Shown in pieces: positions 23,488 through 63,330 of a stretch of 64,000 bases of DNA; position 1 is the first letter of the stretch, and the number at the start of each line of letters is the position of its first letter. Made by a program: the position numbers and the translations under genes. The stretch is taken from positions 124,001 through 188,000 of the forward strand of contig NZ_CP043908.1 in NCBI RefSeq assembly GCF_008630935.1. The letters are read 5' to 3'. Source of the DNA: Thermodesulfobacterium sp. TA1. Lineage in GTDB: Bacteria; Desulfobacterota; Thermodesulfobacteria; Thermodesulfobacteriales; Thermodesulfobacteriaceae. Below the pieces are notes generated by a model. It was not told the origin of the DNA. It saw nothing but the letters and a program-made list of their open reading frames with translations, and ran no database searches.

Positions 23488-24210
23488 ATGAAGGCTTATA
23501 TAGGAACTTCTGGTTGGAGTTACTATTCGTTTAAAGGTATTTTATATCCAGTAGAAAGTAAGCCTAAGGACTGGCTTTCTATTTACGCTAAACATTTTAA
23601 CACCGTAGAGGTTAACGTTACCTTTTACCGACTTCCTTCTTCTAAGACGTTTGAGAAATGGTATGCAGAAACCCCGGAGGATTTCGTCTTTTCGTTAAAG
23701 GCACCCAAGATTATTACCCATGTAAAAAGATTAAAAGAGGTTTTAGAGGATTTAAGGGAGTTTTTAAAAAGAATAGCTGTTTTAAAAGAAAAGGCTAAAG
23801 TTTTACTTTTTCAGTTTCCCCCGTCTTTAAAGTTTGAGAAGAATTTGATAGAAAACTTTTTAAAGGTTTTACCTTCTGATTATTTAATGGTTATAGAAAT
23901 AAGAAATCAGTCTTTTCATACAGAAGAGTTTGTAGATATGGTTAGAGAAAAAGGGATATGTCTTTGTTTTTCTGATTGCGGGAAAAGATATCCTTCCTGG
24001 TATGAGGTACAGACTACAGATTTTTTGTATGTTAGATTGCATGGAAGAGAAAAACTTTACGTTTCTAAGTATAAAGAAGAGGAGTTAAAAGCTTTAGTTA
24101 AAAGCTTAAAAAGGTTTGAGTTTAAAGAGCTTTTTGTTTATTTTGATAACACAGCGTTAGGGCATGCGGTTACAGATGCTTTAACCTTTAAGTCCCTTGT
24201 AGAGGTTTAG
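23488..24210 (+). CDS. DUF72 family protein (YecE-like)
   Basis: 240 residues with the DUF72 TIM-barrel hallmarks IGTSGWSYYSFKG, FNTVEVNVTFYRLPS, FSLKAPKIITHVKRL, LLFQFPPSLKF and YVRLHGREKLY. The biochemical role is not established for the family. It is an isolated plus-strand gene between two minus-strand groups: its start lies near the divergent small gene and its stop overlaps the stop of the response regulator gene by 4 bp. Confidence 0.9.
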   Translation: MKAYIGTSGWSYYSFKGILYPVESKPKDWLSIYAKHFNTVEVNVTFYRLPSSKTFEKWYAETPEDFVFSLKAPKIITHVKRLKEVLEDLREFLKRIAVLKEKAKVLLFQFPPSLKFEKNLIENFLKVLPSDYLMVIEIRNQSFHTEEFVDMVREKGICLCFSDCGKRYPSWYEVQTTDFLYVRLHGREKLYVSKYKEEELKALVKSLKRFEFKELFVYFDNTALGHAVTDALTFKSLVEV

Positions 24211-25367
24211 GATAGGTCTTCTTCAGCGAGTGCTTGATAGAGCTTAAAAAGATGTGGTATTTCTTCATCTTGGAAAAGGGTTCTAATCTCTAAGATGTCT
24301 GGTTTGATTTTAAGGAAGACATCTACCAGTTCAGGGTCAAACCGAGTCCCTTTTTCGGATTTAATGATCTGTAAGGCTATATCATAGGGTAAAGCCCTTC
24401 GGTAAGGTCTGTTTGAAGTGAGGGCATCAAACACATCGGCTATGGCTACTATTCTTGCAAAAAGAGGTATTTTTTTACCTTTTAACCCGCAAGGATAACC
24501 TTTCCCATCCCATCTTTCGTGGTGATAAAGGGCGATTTTTTGAGCGGCTTTAAGGTATTTTATGTTAGAACCTTCTAAAATTTTAGCCCCTATAATCGTG
24601 TGAAGTTTCATGATTTCCCATTCTTTTGGGGTAAGTGGGCCAGGTTTAAGAAGGATCTTGTCAGGAATACCTAATTTACCTATGTCATGAAGCGGAGAGG
24701 CGTATTGAAGGATTTCTATTTGACTTTGGGAAAGTCCTATGGCTTCTGCGATCCTACTACAGTAAAAGCTTATTCTATGAATGTGGGATCCTGTGTGTTC
24801 ATCTCTGTATTCTGCAGCTTTAGCAAGCCTATGAATAATTTCTAAGGAAAGCTTTCTTATCTCTTCATGTGCTTCGTTTAACCCTAAATAAATTTTCTGA
24901 ATTTCTTTGGTTTTTTGAATTACCTCTCTTTCCAGGTTGGCTTGGTAAGTCTTTAAAAACTCACGATATTTTTTATTTTTACTTAAAGTTTTTATCCTTA
25001 CGAAAAGCTCTGGAATAAAAATCGGTTTGGTTAAAAAATCGTCTGCTCCTGCTGCAAGACAGTTAATTTTAGTTTCTAAATCGTTTACCCCGGTAATGAT
25101 GATTACCCCTATTTCAAAGGTTTGATTGTTGTTTTTGATAATTTTACACAAGGAAAGACCGTCCAATCCAGGTAATAGATAGTCTATTAGAGCGATGTCT
25201 GGGTTTACTTCCTCAAGCTTAGCCAAAAACTCTTGCCCAGTTTTCGCAGAAAAAACCTTAAATCCTTCTAAACTTAAAACCTCGGCTAAAGAGGTTCTAA
25301 TATGGTCGTCGTCATCTACTAAAAAAACCTTGGTATGTTCAGGCGCTTCTATCTCTGGCAAAAACAT
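24207..25367 (-). CDS. Response regulator with HD-GYP c-di-GMP phosphodiesterase domain
   Basis: 386 residues. The receiver domain, about 12-130, shows VFLVDDDDHIR, phosphoacceptor Asp in ALIDYLLPGLDG and the Lys in DFLTKPIFIPEL. A helical linker of about 135-180 precedes the HD-GYP domain at about 185-360, with DEHTGSHIHRI, HDIGKLGIPDKIL and HHERWDGKGYPCGL. All metal ligands and the GYP tripeptide are intact, so it should hydrolyse c-di-GMP when signalled. No sensor kinase is adjacent. Its start overlaps mobA by 19 bp. Confidence 0.92.
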   Translation of the reverse strand: MFLPEIEAPEHTKVFLVDDDDHIRTSLAEVLSLEGFKVFSAKTGQEFLAKLEEVNPDIALIDYLLPGLDGLSLCKIIKNNNQTFEIGVIIITGVNDLETKINCLAAGADDFLTKPIFIPELFVRIKTLSKNKKYREFLKTYQANLEREVIQKTKEIQKIYLGLNEAHEEIRKLSLEIIHRLAKAAEYRDEHTGSHIHRISFYCSRIAEAIGLSQSQIEILQYASPLHDIGKLGIPDKILLKPGPLTPKEWEIMKLHTIIGAKILEGSNIKYLKAAQKIALYHHERWDGKGYPCGLKGKKIPLFARIVAIADVFDALTSNRPYRRALPYDIALQIIKSEKGTRFDPELVDVFLKIKPDILEIRTLFQDEEIPHLFKLYQALAEEDLS

Positions 25368-47385: not shown

Positions 47386-48975
47386 ATGAAGGTGAATTTT
47401 AACCCCAACAACCTCTATGGTGGTAATATCCTTCTCTCAGGAGTATTTAGTCAAGGTGAAGATTCCCAAGACTTCAACTTTCTTCAACTCATCCTTCTTT
47501 ATTTACTTGCTAATGGAGATCCTTCCTCTCAGCCCTTTGTTTCCGCGAGTTTAGAAGAAGATCAACCCTATATTTTTGCAGAAAATAACCTTCCACCTAA
47601 TCTTAAGACCTTTCAAAAAGAACAAACCCAAGAAGAGGTTTTTCCAGATTTTTGGTTTGGTATGTTTTTGGGATACTTAGCAGATAAAACAGGGGTTACC
47701 CCTGAAGCTTTATCTTATTTTATTGCTAAGGAGGGTTTGCCTGAGGGTTCTGGTTTAACCTTAGAAATGTTTCCTTTGGATAAAAACAGGCTTTACGAAG
47801 GATTAAAAGACCTTTTGTCTTCTTCTAATCTTAAGGAAGATTTTTTTGGTTGGCTAAACCAGAAAATAGAAACAGAGATAAAAGAAGACCAAAACATTGC
47901 TTCTTTTTTAGTTCCTTTTAAGCAGAATCTTGCTGATTTAACCAAGGGAATAGCCTCTAAGGAGGTATCAGGGCTTAAGTTAGGCTCACCCCAAGAGGAG
48001 AATTTAGAATTTAAAGGCTTGTTGGCTAAGCTTGAGGATAAATTAAGAAATGAGGTATTTACGGATAAAAGGTTTTTAGATTTAAGGACGAAACTTTTAG
48101 AAACTGTAAAGACGATAGGGGCTCAACCACAGGAACATCTTGTAGCCAATAACCAGGAGGTTTTATCCGATTTAAAAGAAATATTTTTACGGAAGGTTAG
48201 CTCTTTAGTAGAGGCTGAAGTCTCTGGAAAAGACCAAAAAGTTGAGGGTTTAAGGTTGACCGGAGAACCGATAGAAAGTTTTAGAGGTTTGTTAAATAAG
48301 GTTTCAAAAGACTCAAGGGGATTAGATAAAAGTTCTGAGGTTTTTGAGAACACCATAGGAGAAACTAAAGGGAAAGAGGTTCTTTTGGCTGATGGAGTAG
48401 CTTTTTTAAACAAAAAGCAAGGTAATTATGACGAAAGACAGGGGGATTTAACTCGTTTTCAACTGTTTTATCATCAGGTTTCTCACCTAAAGGTTGACGG
48501 AGCCCAGCAGATAAAAGTTGAGACCATTAGGTTTTTAGAAGGAGAAAAAATGTCCCCTCAGTTTTTTGAGTTTGTAAAAAGGTTTTCGGCAGAAGTCCTT
48601 CCTGAAGGAGAAAAAAGGGCCTATGTAAGGCTTGAACCCCCACATCTTGGAAGTCTTGATTTAGAAATTAAGGTCCATGAAAAAGAGGTAATGATAGTCG
48701 CAAGGGTAGAAAAAGAAGAGGCCTTTCGTGAACTTCAGGCAAACGTTGAGGCAATCAGGGAAAGTTTAAAAGAACTTGGTTTGTCTCTTAAGGATTTTCA
48801 GACCCAACTCAACTTAGGGACAGGATACCAAGGTTTTGACAGGGAGGATTTTGAGAAAAAGAGGTTTGCTAACAATTTTGGTCAGGGTTTGGAAGACCAA
48901 AAAGAAGATGTAGAGGTTTTAAACCCTCAAGAGGTTTTGAGAAACTTAAAAGGAAAACATTATTTTATCGTTTAG
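47386..48975 (+). CDS. fliK: Flagellar hook-length control protein
   Basis: A secreted molecular ruler that ends hook growth. The 529 residues are mostly variable and hydrophilic. The C-terminal Flg_hook domain at about 405-480 is recognisable: RAYVRLEPPHLGSLDLEI, then VMIVARVEKEEAFRELQANV and LKELGLSLKDFQTQLNLG. Position before flgD and flgE supports the call. A clear ribosome-binding site (AGGAGAGAAAGG) precedes the ATG. Confidence 0.85.
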   Translation: MKVNFNPNNLYGGNILLSGVFSQGEDSQDFNFLQLILLYLLANGDPSSQPFVSASLEEDQPYIFAENNLPPNLKTFQKEQTQEEVFPDFWFGMFLGYLADKTGVTPEALSYFIAKEGLPEGSGLTLEMFPLDKNRLYEGLKDLLSSSNLKEDFFGWLNQKIETEIKEDQNIASFLVPFKQNLADLTKGIASKEVSGLKLGSPQEENLEFKGLLAKLEDKLRNEVFTDKRFLDLRTKLLETVKTIGAQPQEHLVANNQEVLSDLKEIFLRKVSSLVEAEVSGKDQKVEGLRLTGEPIESFRGLLNKVSKDSRGLDKSSEVFENTIGETKGKEVLLADGVAFLNKKQGNYDERQGDLTRFQLFYHQVSHLKVDGAQQIKVETIRFLEGEKMSPQFFEFVKRFSAEVLPEGEKRAYVRLEPPHLGSLDLEIKVHEKEVMIVARVEKEEAFRELQANVEAIRESLKELGLSLKDFQTQLNLGTGYQGFDREDFEKKRFANNFGQGLEDQKEDVEVLNPQEVLRNLKGKHYFIV

Positions 48976-48987
48976 GGAGGGAGAAGT

Positions 48988-49668
48988 ATGGCTACCATTC
49001 CAGTTAACGCTACCAGTTCTACCATAAGTTCGGTAAAAAGCGATTCTCAGAACAACATAAGGACCCCTAAAAAGGTCTTACAAAAAGATGATTTTATCAA
49101 ACTTTTTATCACCCAACTTCAATATCAGGACCCGATGAAGCCACTTGAAAACAACGAGATGGCTATTCAGCTTGCCCTGTTTAACCAGGTAGACCAGCTT
49201 TTTAACATCAACGATACCTTGAAAAGTTTGGTTGACCTTGGGAAAAACCTTAACCTGACCTATGTTTCGAGCTTGGTAGATAAAAAGGTAAAGGTAGATT
49301 CTAACATAGGAAGGGTAGAGCAGGGTCAGTTTTTAGGTGGTGAGTTTAAGGTTGAAGGGTTGGCAACCGGGGTTGAAGTCTTAATAAGAGACTCTAAGGG
49401 TAACTTAGTAAGAAGGTTAACCCTTTCAGACCTTAAGGAAGGTACCTATAAAATAGAGTGGGACGGAAAAGACCAGGCAGGAAATCCTGTGCCTGATGGC
49501 AATTATACCTTTTCTATCTTAGTTTCAGATGGAAAGACGATAAATTCAGTTAAACCAACGATGGTTGCAAGGGTTACCGGGGCTAAGTTAGGAGAGGAAA
49601 ACAAATTGGTAATAAATGGAGCTCAGGAAATCGCCTTTTCAGACATAAAAGAGTTGATAGGGGGTTAA
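48988..49668 (+). CDS. flgD: Flagellar hook assembly (capping) protein FlgD
   Basis: Caps the growing hook and guides FlgE insertion. The 226 residues have the conserved N-terminus QKDDFIKLFITQLQYQDPMK followed by PLENNEMAIQLA, then a FlgD Ig/tudor-like part with GVEVLIRDSKGNLVR, YKIEWDGKDQAGNPVPDG and YTFSILVSDG. It lies 12 bp after fliK and 3 bp before the first flgE-type gene. Confidence 0.93.
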   Translation: MATIPVNATSSTISSVKSDSQNNIRTPKKVLQKDDFIKLFITQLQYQDPMKPLENNEMAIQLALFNQVDQLFNINDTLKSLVDLGKNLNLTYVSSLVDKKVKVDSNIGRVEQGQFLGGEFKVEGLATGVEVLIRDSKGNLVRRLTLSDLKEGTYKIEWDGKDQAGNPVPDGNYTFSILVSDGKTINSVKPTMVARVTGAKLGEENKLVINGAQEIAFSDIKELIGG

Positions 49669-49671
49669 GAT

Positions 49672-51075
49672 ATGGGACTTTTTGGAACGATGTATATAGG
49701 ATATAGCGGGGTTTTTACCACCTCTATGGGGATGAATGTAGCCGCAGACAACATCTCTAACCTTAACACCACCGGGTTTAAAGGAAGTAGATATGAGTTT
49801 GCTAACTCTTTGGTAGAGGCTTATGCCGAAACCTTTCGGAAAGAAAAAGGTTTAGGAAGCAATGTAAAAACTATAAGAACTCTTTTTACTCAGGGAGCCA
49901 TCGTTACCACCGATTCTCCTACCGACCTTGCTATTTCAGGAAAAGGTTTTTTTGTGGTTTCAGACAAAAAGGGAAACCTTTTTTACACCAGGGACGGGCA
50001 ATTTTTTATCAATCAAGTAGACGAACAATATCTTGCTTTACAAAACAGCATGGGACTTTATCTCTTAGGTTCAGCCCCTGAGGCAACCTCAGCCGATTTA
50101 AACGACCTTAAGCCTTACCTTATTCCTAAGGTTATGCCCCCTAAGGGGACCTCTAACATAGACCTTCAGCTTATATTTGACAGCACCAAGCCTATGGAAA
50201 CCATAGACGACCCTCTCTGGCAAAACTATGATGCTACTTCCTCTACCATCATAGAAGACCAGAAGTTTGATTATGTTTTTGATTTTTATGGATACGACAC
50301 CCTTGGTAACAAAACAAACTTTAAGCTTTACGTAGACCGCACTGATAACAACAACGAGTATGAACTTTTGTTTGCCCTTGAAGACCCAACCTTAGACGGA
50401 AGAGGCACCGGTAAATATCAAGGGGCTTTTCTTTATGGAAGATTATCCTTTGGAGGAAACGGTGATGTAGTAGGGACTCAATTTTGGGAAATATCTAATC
50501 CTTCTTCTTTTGACCCTACCACTGACCCCCCGATGGATTTAACCACCCTTGGTAGACCGCAGTTTCAGGTAAATGTAGGAGGCGCAACTCAAACCATTAC
50601 CCTAAACCTTGGTTTTAAGGTTGAACCAGACGGAAGCATTACCAGGTCTACTAACCCAACCAAACTTCAGGCTAATCCTTTTGCACAACTATATTTTAAC
50701 CAAGACGGCTATCCTATAGGGGTTTTTGACAAAATAGAAGTAATTACTGAAGAGGGTAAGGTTGTTGCCTGGTATACCAACAACAAAAACATAGAGGTTT
50801 CAAAGATTTTTTTGGCAGATTTTTCTGGTTATGAGGAAAGCCTAATCAAGGTGGGAAATGGGCTTTTTATGGCAAGAGAAGGAGCTCAGCCCTTTATTTT
50901 TTCTCCTGGAGTGTTTGAAAGAGGAAGGCTTCTTTCCGGAGCTCTTGAAAACTCAAACGTAGACATAGCCTCTGAGATGGTTAGCTTGATTACCCTGCAG
51001 AGGGCTTTTCAAATCAACACCAGGGTTATAACCACTGCAGACCAAATGTTAGAAGACTTTTTAAGTAAACGATAA
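49672..51075 (+). CDS. flgE: Flagellar hook protein FlgE-type, shorter paralogue
   Basis: 467 residues. The N-terminal rod-type motif is ADNISNLNTTGFKGSRYEF, and the C-terminal motif LENSNVDIASEMVSLITLQ with AFQINTRVITTADQML is typical of hook and rod axial proteins. The central domain includes DFYGYDTLGNKTNF. It lies in front of a second, much longer flgE-type gene; this could be the hook and the other a specialised subunit, or the reverse. Confidence 0.85.
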   Translation: MGLFGTMYIGYSGVFTTSMGMNVAADNISNLNTTGFKGSRYEFANSLVEAYAETFRKEKGLGSNVKTIRTLFTQGAIVTTDSPTDLAISGKGFFVVSDKKGNLFYTRDGQFFINQVDEQYLALQNSMGLYLLGSAPEATSADLNDLKPYLIPKVMPPKGTSNIDLQLIFDSTKPMETIDDPLWQNYDATSSTIIEDQKFDYVFDFYGYDTLGNKTNFKLYVDRTDNNNEYELLFALEDPTLDGRGTGKYQGAFLYGRLSFGGNGDVVGTQFWEISNPSSFDPTTDPPMDLTTLGRPQFQVNVGGATQTITLNLGFKVEPDGSITRSTNPTKLQANPFAQLYFNQDGYPIGVFDKIEVITEEGKVVAWYTNNKNIEVSKIFLADFSGYEESLIKVGNGLFMAREGAQPFIFSPGVFERGRLLSGALENSNVDIASEMVSLITLQRAFQINTRVITTADQMLEDFLSKR

Positions 51076-51106
51076 AAAATCCGATAAAATATAAGGGGGT
51101 GATTTT

Positions 51107-53383
51107 ATGGGTTTAACCGATGCCTTGTTTACAGGAACAAGTGGGTTAAGAGCCCTTGGACACGGTATGAGTGTGATCGGAGACAATGTCTCAAACCTTA
51201 ACACCACGGCTTTTAAAGGTGCAAGAATCTCCTTTAGCGATGTTATGGCACAAAGCATAAATACAGGTGCTGGTTCAGGTCAGCTTGGAAGAGGGGCTAG
51301 CATACAGGCACTTTACTCACTTTTTAATCAAGGTTCTTTTGAATCTACCGCCAACCCAACCGATATGGCTATCGCTGGAGCAGGTTTTTTTATCGTTAAA
51401 GACCCTAAAAGCACAGGAAATGTCTTTTATACCAGAGACGGACAGTTTATAGTTGACAGAAATGGATATCTTGTTAATGCAGCTGGTTTGAGGGTTCAAG
51501 GTTGGAGGATAGATGAAGTGACAGGAGATATAACCGGTGCCATAACTGACATTCAAATCGACCGTTCTTCTCCACCTGTCAAAACCTCAAAAATAGACGT
51601 TATCACCAACTTAGACGCAAGGGAAGAAACAAGGACTAAACTTATTTTTTTAAGCGGAAACCTTTATGACGACCCCTCAGACTCAACCTATACTTATTTC
51701 CCTAACACAGGTTATTATGAAGTAGTAATTAGAGATGTAGACGAAAAGGACAACAAAATAGGAATAAAGCTTGGTTATAACGCTGCAACCCAAAAATGGG
51801 CTTATGAAATCTATAATTTGGATACCAACCAGATGATAACCAGCGCCACAGATGTTACTTCAACCAGAGTAATCTTTGAACTTCCTACTACCAAAGAAAT
51901 GATAACCTTTGATTGGAGTGGAATTACCCATGTTAGCGGAACTAACGATATTAAAATGCCTGGAAGGACAGGAAGGATAGAATTATATGATAATATATTC
52001 CCAGACCAGTGGGTAACTATTGATTTTATAGCTCCTACAGACCCCCAAGTGGTAGATGCAAATGGCACCCAGAGAAAATTGCGGATCTACATTAAATACG
52101 ATAGCAGTGATGGTAGATGGGATTACAGGGTTTTCGAAAACCCTGCAAACACTCCTGCAACTAATCCAGATGATCCAACCCAAGAAACAGGGACCCTCCT
52201 TGTAAAAGGAGATAACTCTGATGAGACCAACATTTTCTTTTTCCTTGATGGAACTACCCAAAGAATAAACCTCGATTGGTCCAATTTAAATCCTACTGGT
52301 GGTACCCCTACCGCTAAGGTTTTTACTTTACAAGAAACTGATACCCTTCTTTCATATTGGGATGCAAGACAAGATGTTCCTATCCCCTCTACTGCCTATT
52401 CTTACAGGACCACCCTTACAGTTTATGATTCTTTAGGTACTCCTCATGAGATAACCGTCTATTATAACCCAACTACTAAAGATAACGTCTATGAATTTTT
52501 GGTGGCTTGCAACCCAAACGAAGATGTAAGGGATTTTACCAAAGATGTCCTTCCTATGCAATGGCAATATGAAGAGGGTACGATTACTCAAAACCTTCAA
52601 ATTCCTTCTGGCAATCTTACAGCCCAAAGTTTAAAAGGGGTTTTGATGTATGGAAGGCTTGAGTTTGACAATCAAGGAAACGTAAAAAAGTTTTATGAAA
52701 CCTACAGAATAGATGCCAATACAGGAGCTTTGGTACAGGTAATAGATACTTCAGGTAATCCTGTGGCAGACCCAATAGATAAATTTTCAGCCCTTGGGGC
52801 TCATGGTTATCCTGTTATGATAGCCGATTTTCTTGGGATAGAATTTCCTTATGATATCTATCCTCCCAATTCTCAAGATCAAGGGTTGGTCAGAAACGAC
52901 CTTCAACAGATAGAATTAAACTTTGGATACTTTTTTAAAGATTCTTGGAGGTCTGAATCTGTAAGAACTACCCAATACGCCACATCTAACGCTACCATTT
53001 TTTATGACCAAGATGGTTTCGGACCAGGAGCCTTAGAAAGTATAACCGTTGATAATCAAGGAATAATTACCGGTAATTACTCTAACGGAAGGGTCATTCC
53101 GCTTTGGATGGTTTCCCTTGCCAATTTTAACGCCCCTGAAAGACTTCAAAAAGTAGGAGGCAATCTATTTAAAGAGACCACCCATTCAGGTCCTCCGGTT
53201 ACCGGGAAACCTGGTAGCAACGGCCTTGGCACCATCGCCCCTAACTCTATAGAACAGTCTAACGTAGACTTGGGAGAACAGTTCGTTAAGATGATCATCT
53301 TCCAGAGAGGATTTCAGGCAGACTCTCGTATCATCACCGTCTCAGATACCATGCTTGAAGAGTTAATCAACCTCAAGAGATAA
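51107..53383 (+). CDS. flgE: Flagellar hook protein FlgE-type, long paralogue
   Basis: 758 residues with DNVSNLNTTAFKGARISFSD at the N-terminus and IEQSNVDLGEQFVKMIIFQ, then ADSRIITVSDTML at the C-terminus. The middle is about 290 residues longer than in the preceding paralogue and contains repeated beta-rich segments (TLTVYDSLGTPHEITVYY; two related DWS stretches at about 270 and 395). A large surface domain is typical of long FlgE hooks. It ends the flagellar block; a strong terminator follows. Confidence 0.88.
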   Translation: MGLTDALFTGTSGLRALGHGMSVIGDNVSNLNTTAFKGARISFSDVMAQSINTGAGSGQLGRGASIQALYSLFNQGSFESTANPTDMAIAGAGFFIVKDPKSTGNVFYTRDGQFIVDRNGYLVNAAGLRVQGWRIDEVTGDITGAITDIQIDRSSPPVKTSKIDVITNLDAREETRTKLIFLSGNLYDDPSDSTYTYFPNTGYYEVVIRDVDEKDNKIGIKLGYNAATQKWAYEIYNLDTNQMITSATDVTSTRVIFELPTTKEMITFDWSGITHVSGTNDIKMPGRTGRIELYDNIFPDQWVTIDFIAPTDPQVVDANGTQRKLRIYIKYDSSDGRWDYRVFENPANTPATNPDDPTQETGTLLVKGDNSDETNIFFFLDGTTQRINLDWSNLNPTGGTPTAKVFTLQETDTLLSYWDARQDVPIPSTAYSYRTTLTVYDSLGTPHEITVYYNPTTKDNVYEFLVACNPNEDVRDFTKDVLPMQWQYEEGTITQNLQIPSGNLTAQSLKGVLMYGRLEFDNQGNVKKFYETYRIDANTGALVQVIDTSGNPVADPIDKFSALGAHGYPVMIADFLGIEFPYDIYPPNSQDQGLVRNDLQQIELNFGYFFKDSWRSESVRTTQYATSNATIFYDQDGFGPGALESITVDNQGIITGNYSNGRVIPLWMVSLANFNAPERLQKVGGNLFKETTHSGPPVTGKPGSNGLGTIAPNSIEQSNVDLGEQFVKMIIFQRGFQADSRIITVSDTMLEELINLKR

Positions 53384-54230: not shown

Positions 54231-54258
54231 TTAGGGGGCTTTTAGCCCCCTAATTTTT
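54231..54258 (+). terminator. Rho-independent terminator after rubrerythrin
   Basis: A perfect 10-bp stem, TTAGGGGGCT (54231-54240) and AGCCCCCTAA (54244-54253), with a TTT loop, followed by five T on the plus strand. It overlaps the 3' edge of the convergent TonB receptor gene, whose side lacks a good T-run. Confidence 0.9.
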
Positions 54259-56029
54259 ATCTTTTAAATTCAAGTTTTATTCCCAAGGTTTGGGGCCAGG
54301 CTTTAACACCCTTTATCTCTTCATATTCTTCATCAAGAAGGTTTTTCCCCCAGAGACAAAGGCTTATTCCATTTTTAATCTGTTTTTTCAACTCAACGTT
54401 TACCAAGTAGACCTCTTTAGATCTATAAGGTTTTCTTAAGTTTGCACCGATTATTAAGTCTAATTTTCCAGGAAGCTGGGCGTAAAAACCTCCTACCAAG
54501 TTATGTCTAAAATAGGCCCCTTGATATCTTGCTGACCCCAAATTGCGTGCTACTTGGTTTAAATAGGTATAACTTAAAAATGGTTTTACCTTGGCTAAGT
54601 CTATGGTTAAGTCTAAAGTGGTTCCAAAGGTTTTTAACTCTTCTATGTTTTGAGCCTGAGTGATGGTTCCTTTTTTTATCCAGTCTATGATGTCCTTTCC
54701 TATTCGATAAAAAACCGTTCCTGAAAAGGAGATTCTTTGGTTTTTGTAGTCAAGCCCAGCTTCAACGTTATAAGCTTTTTCATGATCAAGAGATGGATTA
54801 CCCTTGGTATAAGGAGAATCATAATAAAGCTCGGTAAAACTTGGGGCTCTGTAAGAAAAACTAAAAGAGGTTCTGGTTTTAAGGTTAGGTGTGATTAAAT
54901 AGGCTAACCCTAAGTAATAGGAGAAAAAGTCTTCGTTTTTAGCCAGGCTGTCATACCTAACCCCAAGACTCGGAAAGACCTTTTCTCCTATCTTAGGATA
55001 TACCCAAAAGTAAGCCCCTAATCCCTGTCTGACATGGTCTCCAAGCCTTGAACTGTCAAGGCTTTCATAAGAGGCCTCCATCCCAACCACATAGTCAGCC
55101 AAACTCCTTTCTAACCTTAAAGGTAGGTTGGTTCTCAATACCTGCGATTTGTGCGTGTTTTTATAAAAATCAGGATTTCTCCGGTCAAGAAGATAGGTAT
55201 CGTAGTGTATTCTATAAAGGAAGGTTGGTTCAAAAAACCAAGAGTTTCCTCCAAAGTTTTTTTTAGCCAAAAAAAGATGGGTCCTTGTTTCCTCCCATTC
55301 GGTATCATATTTAGTAGTATAAAAGTTTTTTGCCCCAAAGTCCTTTTCTTGAAAACCATAAAAAAACAGCTTTTCCTGATCCTTTAGATAGAGGTTAAAA
55401 GTTCTTATGTCAAAATCCCTGTTCCAGATAAACCCGTTTGACTTTTGCTGAGAAAGATTGACCCCTATAGGGGTTTTTCCTAATTCAAGACCTATAGAAC
55501 CTTTTATTTCCCAGAGGTCATAGCTTCCATACCCACCTGAAAAGAAAACCCCTTTTTCCGGTTTTTTAAGATTAAAATTAACCGCCCCACCAAATCCACC
55601 AGGTCCATAAAGGGCACTTGCTCCACCGGCTAAAACCTCTATAGAAGAAAGCTCTTCGTGGGTAAAAGGAAGGTTCATCAGATGATGCCCTGTCTGTGGG
55701 TCAGAAAGCCTTATACCTTCAAAAACTACTAAATTTTGTTCAAAAGTAGACCCTCTAATAGAAAGGTCTTGTTGAACCCCAAATTCTCCCCTTTCTCTAA
55801 GCTGCAAACTTGAAAATTTTTCAGGTCCTAATTTTAGCTCCCACCCTTCTCTTAACACCTTTACCTCTTGAGAGGTCCGCTCTATGGGTTCAGTGCTTGC
55901 AGGTGCAGTTACCTTAACCTCTTCAAGAAAGACCGAAGGAAGCTCACTTTTTGAAATTTCTGCTTTGGCATTAGCAGTTATAAACCCAAACAAAAACCCT
56001 ACCACTAAAAACCCTTGTCCTCTCTTCAT
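54257..56029 (-). CDS. TonB-dependent outer-membrane receptor
   Basis: About 590 residues from the ATG at 56029, where a signal peptide (MKRGQGFLVVGFLFGFITAN) begins. A GTG-type upstream start is less likely, and GGGGTAGAAAG precedes this ATG. A possible TonB box lies at EEVKVTAP, followed by the plug domain (QDLSIRGSTFEQNLVVFEGI, LAGGASALYGPGGFGGAVNF) and a 22-strand-type barrel ending WPQTLGIKLEFKR. The substrate (cobalamin, siderophore or other metal) cannot be told from sequence. Upstream lies a 9-bp inverted repeat. Confidence 0.9.
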   Translation of the reverse strand: MKRGQGFLVVGFLFGFITANAKAEISKSELPSVFLEEVKVTAPASTEPIERTSQEVKVLREGWELKLGPEKFSSLQLRERGEFGVQQDLSIRGSTFEQNLVVFEGIRLSDPQTGHHLMNLPFTHEELSSIEVLAGGASALYGPGGFGGAVNFNLKKPEKGVFFSGGYGSYDLWEIKGSIGLELGKTPIGVNLSQQKSNGFIWNRDFDIRTFNLYLKDQEKLFFYGFQEKDFGAKNFYTTKYDTEWEETRTHLFLAKKNFGGNSWFFEPTFLYRIHYDTYLLDRRNPDFYKNTHKSQVLRTNLPLRLERSLADYVVGMEASYESLDSSRLGDHVRQGLGAYFWVYPKIGEKVFPSLGVRYDSLAKNEDFFSYYLGLAYLITPNLKTRTSFSFSYRAPSFTELYYDSPYTKGNPSLDHEKAYNVEAGLDYKNQRISFSGTVFYRIGKDIIDWIKKGTITQAQNIEELKTFGTTLDLTIDLAKVKPFLSYTYLNQVARNLGSARYQGAYFRHNLVGGFYAQLPGKLDLIIGANLRKPYRSKEVYLVNVELKKQIKNGISLCLWGKNLLDEEYEEIKGVKAWPQTLGIKLEFKR

Positions 56030-56067
56030 CTTTCTACCCCTTAACCACAATTTGTAGAAGGAAATTT

Positions 56068-57486: not shown

Positions 57487-57534
57487 TTGACAAACTTTAA
57501 AGTTTATGTTTAAAATTGAAATTTAAAATCAATT
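57487..57534 (+). promoter_or_regulatory. Predicted promoter and dyad operator candidates of the extended feo operon
   Basis: TTGACA (57487-57492), 18-base spacer, TAAAAT (57511-57516). Within the spacer is the perfect palindrome AAACTTTAAAGTTT (57492-57505). Overlapping the start of transcription is AATTGA-N9-TCAATT (57514-57534). Either could bind a regulator such as Fur; neither fits a Fur consensus clearly. Confidence 0.45.
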
Positions 57535-57572: not shown

Positions 57573-57875
57573 ATGACGGTTGTAGTCATAGGAGGCCATG
57601 ATCGGTTCAAAAGTCGATTAGAAGAACACGCTAAAAAACAAAAAATTAAGCTTAAGTTTATCAACAGATTTTGCCCTTGTGCCCAAGATGCTATATCCTC
57701 AGCAGACTATGTAATCGTGATTACCGGTTGTGTATCTCATGAACTTGTCGATATAGCCAAAAGGTGCGCTAAAGAAAGATGTATTTTCTGCCAGAAAAAA
57801 GGTCTTTGTAAAATAAAAGAAATAATCAGAGAATTAAAAATTTCCTGTCAAGAAAATTTTTTAAAGATTAATTGA
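57573..57875 (+). CDS. DUF2325 family protein, cysteine-rich
   Basis: 100 residues. The N-terminal VVVIGGHDRFKSRLEEHAKK and middle SADYVIVITGCVSHELVDIAK are typical of the small DUF2325 domain. Seven Cys are visible (C34, C36, C53, C65, C70, C73, C79), with a CxC and a CIFC pair, so a metal or redox site is plausible. It is the first gene after the feo promoter, with an AAAGGAGG ribosome site. The function is not known. Confidence 0.8.
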   Translation: MTVVVIGGHDRFKSRLEEHAKKQKIKLKFINRFCPCAQDAISSADYVIVITGCVSHELVDIAKRCAKERCIFCQKKGLCKIKEIIRELKISCQENFLKIN

Positions 57876-57914
57876 GATTGAAATGCAAAATCTATAACAA
57901 AGTAGGAGGTAAAA

Positions 57915-58238
57915 ATGTTTAAAGGTAGAGAGGAAAAAAGGACGATTCCTCTTGCTCTTCTAAGAGAGGGTGAGGTGGGAAAGATCTATTCTATGCCTGA
58001 TTTGATGGAAAACATAGACTTTTCGGGTGGCAGAAAAGGCTGTGGTGGTCGGGGAAATTGTTTTAAAGGGAAAGGGAATTTTTGCCAAAGGATAGTTTCT
58101 ATGGGATTAAAGCCTGGACAGATGGTCGAGGTAAAACAAAATCAACCAGGTAATCCCATCCTGCTAAAGGTGGGAGAAAGCCTAATAGCTCTAAGTCGGA
58201 GGATTGCTATGTGGATAATGGTTATAAAAAATGACTGA
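57915..58238 (+). CDS. FeoA-like domain protein with a Gly/Cys-rich loop
   Basis: 107 residues forming one SH3-like FeoA domain: the start IPLALLREGEVGKIYSM and the ending CQRIVSMGLKPGQMVEVKQN, LIALSRRIAMWIMV are typical. Between them is a Gly/Cys-rich stretch (SGGRKGCGGRGNCFKGKGNF) that is not in ordinary 75-80-residue FeoA proteins and might bind metal. A strong TAGGAGG precedes the ATG. It overlaps an alternative start of the next gene. Confidence 0.82.
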   Translation: MFKGREEKRTIPLALLREGEVGKIYSMPDLMENIDFSGGRKGCGGRGNCFKGKGNFCQRIVSMGLKPGQMVEVKQNQPGNPILLKVGESLIALSRRIAMWIMVIKND

Positions 58239-58260
58239 ACATTTTAAAAGGAGGGAAAGG

Positions 58261-59019
58261 ATGAGTATACGGAGGTGCAAGAGTTTTGTAGTTTATCCCT
58301 TATCTAACTTTCCTTTAGGTGAGGTGGCAGAAGTAGTATGTATTTCTTCTTTAGACTTAAAATTAAGGTTAAAAAGTATCGGGGTTATAGAAGGAACACT
58401 TTTAGAGGTCGTTTATCAGGATCCAACCGGAGAACGGATGGTAATTAAAATCAACGAAACCAGAATAGCCCTTGATAAGGACATTCTTAAACATGTTTTG
58501 GTGAGACCATTAAAAACCTCTTATGAAACCCTAAGGGAGTTGGTAAGACTTGACCATCTAACCGGGCTTTTAACCAGACAGTTTGCTGAAAATCTTTTAA
58601 AGAGAGAATTAGCCAACCCTCCTTATTGTTTGGTTTTAGCAGACATAGATAATTTTAAGAAATTTAACGATACTTTTGGACATCAAGCAGGAGATCAGGT
58701 TTTAAAGGAAGTGGCTCAGATTGTCAAAAACAATCTTAGAAAAACCGACCTTGCTGTTAGATGGGGTGGAGAGGAATTTGCTATTTTTCTAAAAAATACC
58801 TCTATTGAATTAGGAAGGTCGATAGCAGAACGTATAAGGAAGGCTGTAGCCAATCATGTAGTCTGGTGGCAAGGGAAGGCTTTAAAAGTTACTTTAAGCT
58901 TAGGAGTTTGCGGAAGCCCTCCTGTAAGACCCTTAGAAGTGATTTTGGAAATAACCGACAAAGCTCTGTATCAAGCCAAAAATTCTGGGAAAAATTTAGT
59001 TTCTGTTTGTGAGGGGTAG
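58261..59019 (+). CDS. FeoA-GGDEF fusion: putative iron-linked diguanylate cyclase
   Basis: 252 residues from the ATG at 58261, with AAGGAGGG 6 bases upstream; an earlier ATG at 58231 lacks such a site. Residues about 11-85 are an FeoA-like SH3 domain (FPLGEVAEVVCISSLDLKLR, LKSIGVIEGTLLEVVY, RIALDKDILKHVLVRP). Residues about 95-250 are a GGDEF domain with LDHLTGLLTR, ADIDNFKKFNDTFGHQAGD and the active site RWGGEEF (169-173). A RxxD inhibitory site (R160-D163) lies five residues before it. It should make c-di-GMP. The joining of FeoA to a cyclase is unusual; control by iron or FeoB is inferred. Confidence 0.88.
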   Translation: MSIRRCKSFVVYPLSNFPLGEVAEVVCISSLDLKLRLKSIGVIEGTLLEVVYQDPTGERMVIKINETRIALDKDILKHVLVRPLKTSYETLRELVRLDHLTGLLTRQFAENLLKRELANPPYCLVLADIDNFKKFNDTFGHQAGDQVLKEVAQIVKNNLRKTDLAVRWGGEEFAIFLKNTSIELGRSIAERIRKAVANHVVWWQGKALKVTLSLGVCGSPPVRPLEVILEITDKALYQAKNSGKNLVSVCEG

Positions 59020-59023
59020 GTTT

Positions 59024-59689
59024 ATGTGGGCTAAACAGTGCTTTTATGAACCTGAAATCAAAGAACTTTGTTGTCAGGTCAAAAAATGTAAAGAGTTGAG
59101 GGTTACTATTCATCAGATTTGTGAGGTTTTGACTAACCTTATGGAAAGTAAAGACTGTTTTACCAAAAATCACTCTGAAAAAGTGGCAGTGTTTAGTTAT
59201 ATGCTTGCCTTAGAATTAGGGTTGCCTCCTGAGGTTGCAGACTTTATACATATTGCAGGGCATCTTCATGATATAGGAAAGTTCGCTCTACCCGATGAAA
59301 TCTTAAAAAAGCCAGGACCTTTGACAAGAGAAGAATGGGTATTGGTTAAAAAACATCCTGTTATAGGGGCAAAGTATCTTGAAAGTATAAAAATCTTTCA
59401 GGGGAAAGGTGGGGTGATAGAGATGGTGCTTTACCATCATGAAAGATGGGATGGTAAGGGATATCCTTATGGTCTTCGAAAAAGAGAAATACCTCTTGGA
59501 GCAAGGATTATAGCCGTGGCTGATGCTTTTTCAGCGATGGTAGATAAACGTCCTTATCGAGAACCTTTAAGTTTTAATGTTGTTTTAGAAGAACTAAAAC
59601 AAGGAGCAGGTTCTCAGTTTGATCCAAACATAGTAGAGGCTTTTTTTAGCATAGAAGAAAAAGTAAAAGCTTATTTAGATTTAATATAA
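59024..59689 (+). CDS. HD-GYP c-di-GMP phosphodiesterase with N-terminal cysteine cluster
   Basis: 221 residues from the ATG at 59024 (GAGGGGTAGG upstream); a GTG at 59009 is less likely. The N-terminus holds C6, C16, C17, C22 and C33 before the catalytic domain. The HD-GYP part is complete: TKNHSEKVAVFSYM, HLHDIGKFALPDEIL (H82-D83), HHERWDGKGYPYGL (138-151, GYP at 146-148) and RIIAVADAFSAMVDKRPYRE. It should degrade c-di-GMP. It lies 4 bp after the FeoA-GGDEF gene, so a matched synthase and phosphodiesterase pair are encoded together inside the feo operon. Confidence 0.9.
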   Translation: MWAKQCFYEPEIKELCCQVKKCKELRVTIHQICEVLTNLMESKDCFTKNHSEKVAVFSYMLALELGLPPEVADFIHIAGHLHDIGKFALPDEILKKPGPLTREEWVLVKKHPVIGAKYLESIKIFQGKGGVIEMVLYHHERWDGKGYPYGLRKREIPLGARIIAVADAFSAMVDKRPYREPLSFNVVLEELKQGAGSQFDPNIVEAFFSIEEKVKAYLDLI

Positions 59690-59715
59690 AAAACTTAAAA
59701 GGAGGAGGTAAGCTG

Positions 59716-59946
59716 ATGCCAAGGCTTTCGGAATCAAAGGTCGGACAAAAGGTAAAGGTGCTTTCTTTGGAAGGGTCTCCTTCAGTAAAGCAAAGACTAA
59801 AAGAGATGGGGTTAACCCCTGGGGTTGAGCTTCAGGTGGTTAGGGTTGCTCCCCTTGCCGATCCTATCGATGTGGTGGTGAGGGGATATCATTTATCGAT
59901 AAGAAAGAAAGAAGCAGAATTGATCAAAGTGGAGGTGCTTTCATGA
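59716..59946 (+). CDS. feoA: Ferrous iron transport protein A
   Basis: A standard 76-residue FeoA, a cytoplasmic SH3-like partner of FeoB: ESKVGQKVKVLSLEGSPSVK, KQRLKEMGLTPGVELQVVRV and APLADPIDVVVRGYHLSIR. It overlaps feoB by the ATGA tetranucleotide, so translation is coupled. A strong AAAGGAGGAGG is present upstream. Confidence 0.95.
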   Translation: MPRLSESKVGQKVKVLSLEGSPSVKQRLKEMGLTPGVELQVVRVAPLADPIDVVVRGYHLSIRKKEAELIKVEVLS

Positions 59947-62087
59947 AAGAAATCAAAATAGCCGTAGTAGGGAACCCAAACACCGGTAAGTCAAGTTTGA
60001 TCAACGCTATCGCAAAAGCAAACCTTCAAGTAGGTAACTGGCCAGGGGTAACCGTAGAAAAAAAGGAGGCTAAAGTTTCTTATAAAGGATACACCTTTTA
60101 CTTTGTTGACCTGCCTGGTGCTTATAGTTTAACCCCTTATAGTATCGATGAAACAATCACCAGAGATTTTCTTTTTTTGGGGGAATATGATGTCATTTTA
60201 TGCGTCGTTGATACCACCAATCTTGAAAGAAATCTCTATTTTGTAATTCAGCTTATGGAGCTTGAAAAACCCTTAGTGCTTGCTTTAAACATGTTTGATG
60301 AAGTCAAAAGACTTGGTTATAAAATTGACATTCCTCTTTTAGAAGAAATGCTTGGAGTAAAGGCTATACCTACGATTGCAATAAAGGAGCAAGGAATTGA
60401 GGACCTTAAAGAAGCCTTGATAGAGGTTTTTGAAAAAAATCTTATTCCTAAAAGATTACCTTACGGAGAAGATTTAGAAGAGATGATAAAAAAAGTTAAT
60501 AACCATCTTAAGGCACTTAATCCAGATTTAGAAAAGGTTAGTTTAGGTTTAATTTTAAAGATCTTGGAAGAAGACGAAGAAGTCTTAAATAAAATAGGAC
60601 TAAAGTCAGAGAAAAACGAGATAAAAATTATAAGCAATCATATTAAAACTGTTCATGAAGTAGAACTTAGCGATTATCTTCTTGACGTTAGATATGGTTT
60701 AGCAACCGGGATTACCAAAAGGGTCCTTCAGCGTCCGGAAATCCGAAGAGAAACCCTTACAGAAAAGATGGATAAAATTTTTTTAAATAGAATCTTAGGA
60801 TTACCTTTGTTTCTTTTAATCATGTGGTTTGCTTTTAAGGTCGCGTTTGATATAGCCAATCCTTATGTAGATTTTTTAGACAAGGCTATTAATGAAATTT
60901 CTAAAAAATGGATAGAGGCAGCGCTCTCTTTTGTGGGTGCAGCAGATTGGGTAAGTTCTCTTGTGGTTGATGGTATCGTAGGGGGTGTGGGGACTGTTTT
61001 GTCTTTTATTCCTGTGATCGGGATGATCATGCTTATGATAACCTTTCTTGAAGCAACAGGATATATGGCAAGGGCTGCCTTTCTTATGGATAGGATCATG
61101 CGTTCTTTTGGCCTTCAAGGAAAAGCTTTTATACCCTTACTTATGGGTTTTGGTTGCAACGTGCCTTCTGTTTATGGTTGTAGAACCATGGAACAAGAAC
61201 ATGAAAGAAAACTTACCATGTTTATAATACCTTTTATGTCTTGTGGGGCAAGACTTCCTGTTTATGCTTTGTTTGTCTCTGCTTTTTTTGCCACTCATTC
61301 GGCTGAAGTGCTTCTTTTTCTCTATGTGCTGGGTATCGTAGTGGGTCTTACCATAGCGATTATCCTTCACAAAATCTATTTTAAAGGAAGCAGTGCACCT
61401 TTTATCATGGAACTTCCACCGTATCGTATGCCTACTTTTAAAAACCTTGCTATTCATACCTGGCTCAAACTAAAACATTTTATAATAAAGGCAGGAACTT
61501 GGATTTTGGCTTTTAATGTCCTCGTATGGATGTCATTAAACCTTCCTTGGAAGCCTGAGAACCCAGAAGATTCAATTTTAGGTAAGTTAGGACACGCGAT
61601 AGCCCCTGTTTTTAAGCCTCTTGGTTTTGGGGATTGGGCAAGTAGTGCGAGTTTATTGACCGGTTTTCCTGCAAAAGAGGTAGTTGTTTCAACCATGGCC
61701 CAGATTTACGGAAGAAGTGAAGAAGGAAAAGAAGAAAAGACTTTATCTCTTAAAGATGACCTAAAAGATTTAGTCCTAACTTTTGCTGAAAAAACCAAAG
61801 AGGCTGGGCTTAATTTAATCTCCTCTTTTAAGGTGGTTACTATTTCTGCAGAATTGTCAGAAGAAGGTGTAGGGATTTTATCTGAGCTCCAAAACAGGTT
61901 TACCCCTGCTTCAGCCCTTTCTTTTATGGTTTTTACCCTTCTCTATTTTCCTTGTATGGTTTATGCAGCAGCCGTTAAGACTGAGACAGGATCCTTTAAG
62001 TTCGTTTTGCAAATTATAGGTATAACCTTGATAGCCGCCTGGATAGTTTCTTTTTTGGTTTATCAGTTTGCAAGATTGATTTTTTAG
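59943..62087 (+). CDS. feoB: Ferrous iron transport protein B
   Basis: The Fe2+ importer of the inner membrane, 714 residues. The N-terminal G domain has G1 GNPNTGKSSL, G2 NWPGVTVEKKEA, G3 DLPGAYSL and G4 NMFDE. It is followed by a GDI-like helical part and a membrane domain with GCNVPSVYGCRTME and FMSCGARLPVYALFVSAFF, the Cys-containing gate motif, and GFPAKEVVVSTMAQIY. The C-terminal helices are complete. It is the last feo gene; a porin-like gene follows after 91 bp. Confidence 0.97.
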   Translation: MKEIKIAVVGNPNTGKSSLINAIAKANLQVGNWPGVTVEKKEAKVSYKGYTFYFVDLPGAYSLTPYSIDETITRDFLFLGEYDVILCVVDTTNLERNLYFVIQLMELEKPLVLALNMFDEVKRLGYKIDIPLLEEMLGVKAIPTIAIKEQGIEDLKEALIEVFEKNLIPKRLPYGEDLEEMIKKVNNHLKALNPDLEKVSLGLILKILEEDEEVLNKIGLKSEKNEIKIISNHIKTVHEVELSDYLLDVRYGLATGITKRVLQRPEIRRETLTEKMDKIFLNRILGLPLFLLIMWFAFKVAFDIANPYVDFLDKAINEISKKWIEAALSFVGAADWVSSLVVDGIVGGVGTVLSFIPVIGMIMLMITFLEATGYMARAAFLMDRIMRSFGLQGKAFIPLLMGFGCNVPSVYGCRTMEQEHERKLTMFIIPFMSCGARLPVYALFVSAFFATHSAEVLLFLYVLGIVVGLTIAIILHKIYFKGSSAPFIMELPPYRMPTFKNLAIHTWLKLKHFIIKAGTWILAFNVLVWMSLNLPWKPENPEDSILGKLGHAIAPVFKPLGFGDWASSASLLTGFPAKEVVVSTMAQIYGRSEEGKEEKTLSLKDDLKDLVLTFAEKTKEAGLNLISSFKVVTISAELSEEGVGILSELQNRFTPASALSFMVFTLLYFPCMVYAAAVKTETGSFKFVLQIIGITLIAAWIVSFLVYQFARLIF

Positions 62088-62178: not shown

Positions 62179-63330
62179 ATGAAAAAGGGTTACGTAACTG
62201 CTTTAGCTTTAGGTTTGGTAGTTTGTGGGTTTTCGGGTAAGGTTAAAGCCTACGAAGTCAACGAAAAACTTTCGATCGAGGCAAACCTAACCGGGGTTTA
62301 TCAATGGTTAGACCAAAAAAAGGGAGATTTTAAGAATGAAGAAAAGGGCTCTGCGGTGCTTGATGTAAGGATTACCTTTACACCTACAGAAAAAGACGAA
62401 TTCTCTATAAGAGGTAGTTTGGCTAAAGGAAACGGATTGAAAAAAGTAAGCCCTTTTATACTTTCTCCTAATGCTGACGACCTAAGGGATGACCTTCATA
62501 ACATCAATAACCGTTCAAGAGATCACCTTCAGGAACTTTGGTATGCAAGGACTTTTGATCTACCAGGCAATTCAACCCTTAAAGCAACCTTAGGAATCAT
62601 AGATTCTACCGCTTTTATCGACCAAAACCGGTTTGCTAACGATGAGTTAACCCAGTTTATGAACGAGGCCTTTGTAAACAATCCTTTAGCCAATCTGGTA
62701 AGCTATGATTATGGGGTAGCGTTAGAATGGACTAAAGGGCCCTTTTCTATAGGACTGGTCGGTATGCAAAGTAAAACCGAGGAAAGCGATAACCCAACTT
62801 TTGATAAAAGGACTTATAACTACTATGCAGCCCAGATAGGTTATAAACTGGAAACCTCTCTTGGGGAGGGGAATTACCGGATTTTTGCCTTTACCACCAA
62901 CAAGCGTTTCCCCGATTGGAAAGAAGAGAAGAAAAAGGCATTAAAAGGCTGGGGTATTTCTATAGACCAAGATTTGATAAAAGATAAGCTTGGGGTTTTT
63001 GCAAGGGCGGGTTTCCAAGACGATGATGCCCAAGTAGATTATAAGAGTATGTATTCCTTAGGGTTGGCCTATAAGTTTAATCCTTTTGGTAAAAAAGATT
63101 TTGAATTAGGGATAGGTTATGCCTATCTTAAAGCCCCTTCAAAAAATGAAGAATTAAAACACACTAAAGCTATAGAAGCCTATCTGGCTATTCCTCTTTA
63201 TGAAAAAGAAAAGGTCTTTGCTTCAACCCTTACGTTTGATTGGCAATGGATGCAAGATAAGCTAAAAGACGAAGAAAACCCAGAAAATAAAGGCAATATC
63301 TTTGGTGTACGGTTAAACTTTACTTTTTAA
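62179..63330 (+). CDS. Outer-membrane beta-barrel porin-like protein
   Basis: 383 residues with a signal peptide (MKKGYVTALALGLVVCGFSG, cleaved near KVKA-YEV) and a strand pattern that alternates polar and hydrophobic residues. Examples are LDVRITFTPTEKDEFSIRG, FSIGLVGMQSKTEE and LGLAYKFNPFGKKDFELGIG, and it ends with an aromatic FGVRLNFTF. That ending is typical of outer-membrane barrels recognised by BamA. No specific family is recognised. It lies after feoB and may help metal or solute entry, but that is only a guess. A hairpin follows the gene. Confidence 0.75.
   Translation: MKKGYVTALALGLVVCGFSGKVKAYEVNEKLSIEANLTGVYQWLDQKKGDFKNEEKGSAVLDVRITFTPTEKDEFSIRGSLAKGNGLKKVSPFILSPNADDLRDDLHNINNRSRDHLQELWYARTFDLPGNSTLKATLGIIDSTAFIDQNRFANDELTQFMNEAFVNNPLANLVSYDYGVALEWTKGPFSIGLVGMQSKTEESDNPTFDKRTYNYYAAQIGYKLETSLGEGNYRIFAFTTNKRFPDWKEEKKKALKGWGISIDQDLIKDKLGVFARAGFQDDDAQVDYKSMYSLGLAYKFNPFGKKDFELGIGYAYLKAPSKNEELKHTKAIEAYLAIPLYEKEKVFASTLTFDWQWMQDKLKDEENPENKGNIFGVRLNFTF

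Follow-up and report, generated by a model that had tools for sequence, protein, structure and literature searches.

A FeoA-GGDEF protein and its HD-GYP partner in a feo operon of Thermodesulfobacterium sp. TA1: a candidate link between ferrous iron uptake and c-di-GMP

Two described systems already tie iron to cyclic di-GMP (c-di-GMP), so that the theme itself is known: in Pseudomonas aeruginosa iron controls a diguanylate cyclase through interaction with a sensor, the CHASE4 domain of a membrane protein binding Fe(III) (IsmP-ImcA; PMC10904736), and in Stenotrophomonas maltophilia Fe(II) sets the c-di-GMP level through SisP, a ferrous-iron-activated EAL phosphodiesterase with a PAS-type sensor (PMC9600515). 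Here we describe a locus in a 64,000-nucleotide stretch of the thermophilic sulfate reducer Thermodesulfobacterium sp. TA1 (NZ_CP043908.1, positions 124,001 to 188,000, called the window throughout; the host genome is a single contig of 1.83 Mb) that is wired in a new way, with a FeoA domain fused to the GGDEF cyclase itself and the fusion encoded, together with an HD-GYP partner, inside the operon of the ferrous iron transporter FeoB. No description of a FeoA-GGDEF protein was found in the open-access literature (subscription journals lay mostly outside the search), and a review that takes a census of the sensory inputs to c-di-GMP signalling (PMC8846402) uses no word beginning with Feo in its main text.

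Other known systems share part of this arrangement. In Desulfovibrio, a genus of related sulfate reducers, the GGDEF gene gdp and the HD-domain gene hdd are predicted members of the Fur regulon and thus also under predicted iron control, but they are scattered genes with FUR boxes, and the available portion of the source (PMC545781) mentions neither a FeoA domain nor membership of a feo operon. The FeoAB fusion of Bacteroides fragilis likewise joins a FeoA/SH3-like domain to a Feo-system protein that uses GTP, there FeoB itself rather than a GGDEF enzyme; the fusion survey in the same paper lists FeoA-FeoA and FeoA-FeoB, with non-Feo fusions set aside by hand, and the role of FeoA is still debated (PMC8980893). 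DtxR-family repressors with a C-terminal FeoA/SH3-like domain, often encoded beside feoB, have DNA binding as their output, whereas the predicted output of FeoA-GGDEF is c-di-GMP synthesis; their SH3-like domains are the closest sequence kin that we found for the FeoA part.

Our preferred reading, to which we give an even chance, is that the operon forms a c-di-GMP control unit dedicated to ferrous iron uptake, in which the FeoA domain couples the cyclase to the Fe(II) or Feo state and the HD-GYP protein resets the signal. The FeoA domain would then be a novel kind of input domain in c-di-GMP signalling and would give a direct molecular link from Fe(II) supply to surface or motility decisions in anaerobes of iron- and sulfide-rich places, while a FeoA domain on an enzyme whose output is easy to measure would offer a way to test what FeoA binds and reports.

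The enzyme pair within the feo operon

Pfam profile searches of the open reading frames in the window, supplemented by TIGR00437 for FeoB, place the genes for DUF2325, a FeoA-like protein, FeoA-GGDEF, HD-GYP, FeoA (59716..59946, +; PF04023, 2.9e-21) and FeoB (59943..62087, +; TIGR00437, 1e-186) in one close plus-strand run. The spacings from DUF2325 to FeoA are 39, 22, 4 and 26 nt, and FeoA and FeoB overlap by 4 nt. A first-pass annotation of this DNA had described the same run; we corrected two of its starts and added a porin gene. The alignment of relatives, together with Shine-Dalgarno sequences, makes it more likely that the cyclase starts at 58261 (58261..59019, +, 252 residues; longest open reading frame from 58231) and the HD-GYP protein at 59024 (59024..59689, +, 221 residues; longest open reading frame from 59009).

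The only above-cut-off Pfam matches of the cyclase are an N-terminal FeoA (SH3-like) domain (58297..58509, +, residues 23-93 of 262; 58.7 bits against a PF04023 gathering cut-off of 23, E 6e-16) and a GGDEF domain (58549..58995, +, residues 107-255 of 262; 1e-40), with no CHASE4 or PAS sensor domain of the IsmP/ImcA type among them. The RWGGEEF signature and RxxD inhibitory site (I-site) reported by the first-pass annotation are both present and intact, with RKTD at 58738-58749, GGEEF at 58765-58779 and the whole from RKTD to RWGGEEF spanning 58738-58779, and the protein has the GG[D/E]EF motif, predicted fold and metal aspartates of the GGDEF class. RxxD occurs in all nine full-length FeoA-GGDEF sequences aligned, and the active-site motif is kept in the aligned relatives, with the variants GGEEI in G028 and GGDEF in G201. 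An AlphaFold model of the whole cyclase has a mean predicted local distance difference test score (pLDDT) of 87, and the best PDB match of its GGDEF part is 3ign (E 5e-18). The FeoA domain modelled alone (pLDDT 82) is predicted to form the SH3-like barrel expected of PF04023, the model superposing on the FeoA structure 3e19 with Z 12.9 (root-mean-square deviation 1.7 over 76) and on B. fragilis FeoA, 7r7b, with Z 12.0 (1.5 over 73).

The HD-GYP protein (PF13487, HD_5, 4.9e-39), a predicted stand-alone c-di-GMP phosphodiesterase, carries the motifs HLHDIGK, HP, HHERWDGKGYP and DAF, and alignment both with relatives and with PmGH (4mcw) finds the metal ligands H...HD...H...HH...D and the GYP motif in place, so that the earlier claim of intact ligands holds. 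At the position of PmGH E185, which marks the trinuclear-iron subgroup, the protein has no Glu or Asp, and most relatives have Phe or Tyr there; this replacement of the third-iron glutamate fits the Y/F subgroup, which is predicted to be binuclear (PMC4159591). The short N-terminal tail of the protein (59024-59100) contains C6 and C22, which are largely kept within the family and not in Nitrospirota.

Across two phyla, an alignment of 9 cyclases and 10 phosphodiesterases shows the catalytic, I-site and metal-ligand residues preserved. Within the genus, the cyclase and the HD-GYP protein have ratios of nonsynonymous to synonymous substitution rates (dN/dS) of 0.07-0.16. Both genes are under purifying selection, and both enzymes look functional by these residues.

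Distribution and origin of the pair

Of 30 genomes of the family, 8 encode the full FeoA-GGDEF protein; they are spread over three genera, the fusion gene is each time followed by that for the same small HD-GYP protein, and 7 of these 8 fusions lie directly within the feo run. It also occurs in 3 of 396 Nitrospirota genomes, one found in the genome scan (L083) and two in a search of the phylum (L165 and L166), and feoB adjoins the fusion in 10 of these 11 cases. The first-pass annotation had asked for a genome search for the fusion and its distance to feoB, and had staked its reading on relatives keeping the FeoA and GGDEF parts together; this association is found in two phyla. Among the loci listed in the cross-genome scan, only L082 and L083 match well over the FeoA part, and the other 78 are GGDEF or partial-query matches.

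The Nitrospirota loci keep much of the neighbourhood in altered order. One reads DUF2325, porin, FeoA-GGDEF, FeoA-like, FeoA, FeoB (L083); in another the HD-GYP gene follows the cyclase within the same run (L166), and in the third DUF2325 and HD-GYP lie behind feoB (L165). A gene for a DtxR-type regulator is nearby in all three (checked with Pfam for L083). DUF2325 in the feo run and an OprB porin beside the feo genes are seen in both phyla.

In trees, the nine full-length fusions group by their GGDEF domains in a single clade (support 100/99), set against 89 other GGDEF domains that include some from the host genome. The HD-GYP partners likewise fall into a single clade when compared with 22 other HD-GYP proteins (support 100/99), a somewhat weaker result since that background comes mostly from the same order. 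A single origin of the pair, which then stayed tied to ferrous iron uptake, is the simplest reading of these trees, and the single clade of each enzyme argues for an old linked cassette rather than a local accident. The conserved linkage suggests that iron supply may act directly on how the cell behaves.

Regulation, proposed mechanism and rival explanations

The first-pass annotation had set the run behind one predicted promoter. A TTGACA-18-TAAAAT promoter (57487..57516, +; 11 of 12 consensus positions) is indeed the best match of our scan, but the total number of consensus matches in the region is not above chance. Comparison of relatives yielded a 21-bp palindrome, AATTGAAATTNAATTTCAATT, which lies 24-27 bp after TTGAC and upstream of the feo operons in most relatives; it is kept where the cyclase is absent and hence belongs to the feo operon. 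Its copy in the window, AATTGAAATTTAAAATCAATT (57514..57534, no strand assigned), overlaps or just follows the -10 element and is a candidate operator for an iron regulator of the Fur type. We infer that the palindrome fits an iron-regulator box, and Fur control of the operon is likely. One of six other palindrome matches in the genome lies on the promoter side of a second feoB run. The published delta-proteobacterial FUR consensus gave no significant match upstream of the operon in the host genome, and the only Rfam match in the window is a transfer RNA, with neither a c-di-GMP riboswitch nor any other RNA element close to the operon.

In the mechanism that we propose, iron scarcity would cause a Fur-type repressor at the promoter palindrome to release the operon, and FeoA and FeoB would be produced together with a cyclase bearing an N-terminal FeoA/SH3-like regulatory domain and an HD-GYP protein that removes the product. 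On binding Fe(II) itself or a Feo partner (FeoA, the FeoA-like protein or, in its GTP-bound form, the G domain of FeoB), the FeoA domain would shift the pairing of the two GGDEF domains in the dimer, and the c-di-GMP level would thereby track Fe(II) uptake. Product inhibition at RxxD would cap that level, and the HD-GYP protein, of an enzyme type that carries iron in solved relatives (PmGH has an iron centre; PMC4159591), would reset the signal and may be iron-dependent in its turn. In favour of this mechanism, FeoA is a protein-contact fold and has been shown in B. fragilis to bind the G domain of FeoB (NFeoB) in a way that depends on the nucleotide (PMC8980893). A candidate metal or partner site is provided by E44, E49 and D54, which are invariant in ten sequences from two phyla, where aligned FeoA proteins mostly have Pro at the first position and Ala at the last. 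A bolder and fairly improbable version makes FeoB a receptor as well as a transporter: the FeoA domain of the cyclase would compete with or replace FeoA on the GTP-loaded G domain, c-di-GMP would report Fe(II) transport in real time, and FeoA domains would be general adaptors for different outputs (transporter, repressor, cyclase).

Several observations weigh against our preferred reading. In one Caldimicrobium genome, of the same family and another genus (G199, the L082 locus above), the block of DUF2325, FeoA-like, FeoA-GGDEF, HD-GYP and FeoA lies elsewhere, apart from feoAB, so adjacency to feoB is not obligatory. Three relatives (G198, G100 and G213) have the same feo operon without the cyclase and HD-GYP genes, and pair-less relatives such as G198 and G100 retain DUF2325, FeoA-like, FeoA, FeoB and the porin. 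With many relatives running the operon in this form, Feo does not need the pair, which is a cassette open to gain or loss. One-base frameshifts interrupt the GGDEF sequence of G214 and of G222, and another does so in the HD-GYP gene of G065 (L055 about 4275, L056 about 4300 in reverse strand numbering, L053 about 5370), either through sequencing error or through decay or recent loss; we do not accept them as proof of decay. The window copy of the palindrome is imperfect and alone not significant, and genome-wide, at two mismatches or fewer, the pattern finds 7 sites against 13 for a reversed control, showing no enrichment. The version with specific FeoB contact is weakened in addition by the FeoA part being nearer to DtxR SH3-like domains than to feoA products.

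The main rival is plain co-expression under an iron regulator, in which a Fur-type protein would set the amounts of the enzymes and the FeoA domain would be a mere dimerisation or stability module that passes no iron or FeoB signal. The palindrome common to feo promoters, the three Fur-family proteins encoded in the host genome and the predicted Fur control of Desulfovibrio gdp and hdd (PMC545781) all suit it as they suit our preferred reading; the co-inheritance of an HD-GYP partner that itself has no FeoA domain speaks for the rival too. Yet a plain dimeriser has no need to be a FeoA domain beside FeoB, and the FeoA part, with its family-specific invariant acidic residues E44, E49 and D54, has been kept with GGDEF as one clade in two phyla under purifying selection; we consider this rival improbable, if still a serious contender. 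Chance insertion of unrelated signalling genes into a feo operon, which the pair-less operons of related species would allow, is very remote: the same fusion stands beside feoB in two phyla, a recurrence of gene clustering that is not chance, and each enzyme has a single origin.

The kinship of the FeoA part bears on a further alternative, in which the N-terminal part of the cyclase would be an SH3-like domain of the DtxR type engaged in direct metal sensing, with a cyclase in place of the DNA-binding output and no role in FeoB contact. Scored with hidden Markov models, the window cyclase reaches 53 bits for DtxR C-terminal domains, 28 for FeoA-like genes and 21 for feoA genes, a gap inflated by the DtxR set having been found with the same query; DtxR-type proteins were also the first matches outside the genus in a phylum search equally able to return feoA genes. 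That search matched the FeoA part in 48 of 198 genomes, many of the matches falling in frames of 230-280 residues that resembled further fusions. We rejected the plus-strand ones as such: they are DtxR-type regulators with a C-terminal FeoA domain (L012, L013, L018, L020, L023, L028, L029, L030 and L032-L034), most encoded directly behind a feoB-like gene in the same phylum. The modelled fold also resembles the SH3-like domains of IdeR (4o6j, Z 12.4), ScaR and MtsR (Z about 10 to 12), but its FeoA matches are equally good, the PDB sequence matches are FeoA proteins, and no known metal site was identified in the domain. Only the SH3-like part is DtxR-like, Pfam finding neither the DNA-binding (PF01325) nor the metal-binding and dimerisation (PF02742) domain of DtxR/IdeR in the cyclase, and we hold direct sensing of this kind to be unlikely. 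Still less likely is signalling in the reverse direction, the FeoA domain bringing GGDEF to FeoB so that the GTP-driven transporter would be tuned by c-di-GMP or GTP consumption close by, and iron uptake would follow the c-di-GMP state. GTP is used by GGDEF as well as by FeoB, their genes are tightly linked, and in B. fragilis NFeoB hydrolyses GTP more slowly in the presence of FeoA (PMC8980893); against this, Pfam finds no c-di-GMP-binding PilZ domain in the operon, FeoB operates without the module in relatives, and in G199 the module lies away from feoB.

Neighbouring genes and other c-di-GMP proteins

The first-pass annotation had extended the link to motility or polysaccharide, and flagellar (47386-53383) and polysaccharide genes do lie in the window, but nothing ties them specifically to FeoA-GGDEF, given that the host genome has 16 other GGDEF-type matches and at least two other HD-GYP proteins. 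A second HD-GYP protein in the window, with a receiver domain (24207-25367, -), falls outside the clade of the operon HD-GYP proteins. The only other FeoA gene of the host genome stands in an overlapping run Fur - FeoA - PilZ outside the window (L171:1052-2744; G000:C1, about 96.8-98.5 kb), a run not seen within about 60 kb each of G028 and G065. It forms a second neighbourhood of FeoA and c-di-GMP, here with a receptor, as the PilZ part has the c-di-GMP-binding motifs RSFTR and DISYGG; in an odd fusion, the C-terminal half of the same protein is a phosphoribosyltransferase, by eye resembling orotate phosphoribosyltransferase.

The feo run opens with the Cys-rich DUF2325 protein (57573..57875, +, 100 residues; PF10087, 3.9e-17) and the FeoA-like protein (57915..58238, +; PF04023, 1.3e-13, and alignment). 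The latter has a Cys-rich insert (GCGGRGNC...FC) that separates its first strand from the SH3-like core, and its cysteines vary among aligned relatives. The OprB-family porin (62179..63330, +; PF04966, 3.3e-12) starts 91 nt after feoB and is probably part of the same operon. On the minus strand near the operon lies a gene for a TonB-dependent receptor (54257-56050), and a similar gene is found alongside in G028, G206 and G214. A small protein that by eye resembles NifX/NifB-type iron-molybdenum cofactor proteins adjoins the feo and HD-GYP genes in two other genomes (L165:8928-9314, reverse strand numbering, and L053:2922-3314, in G065).

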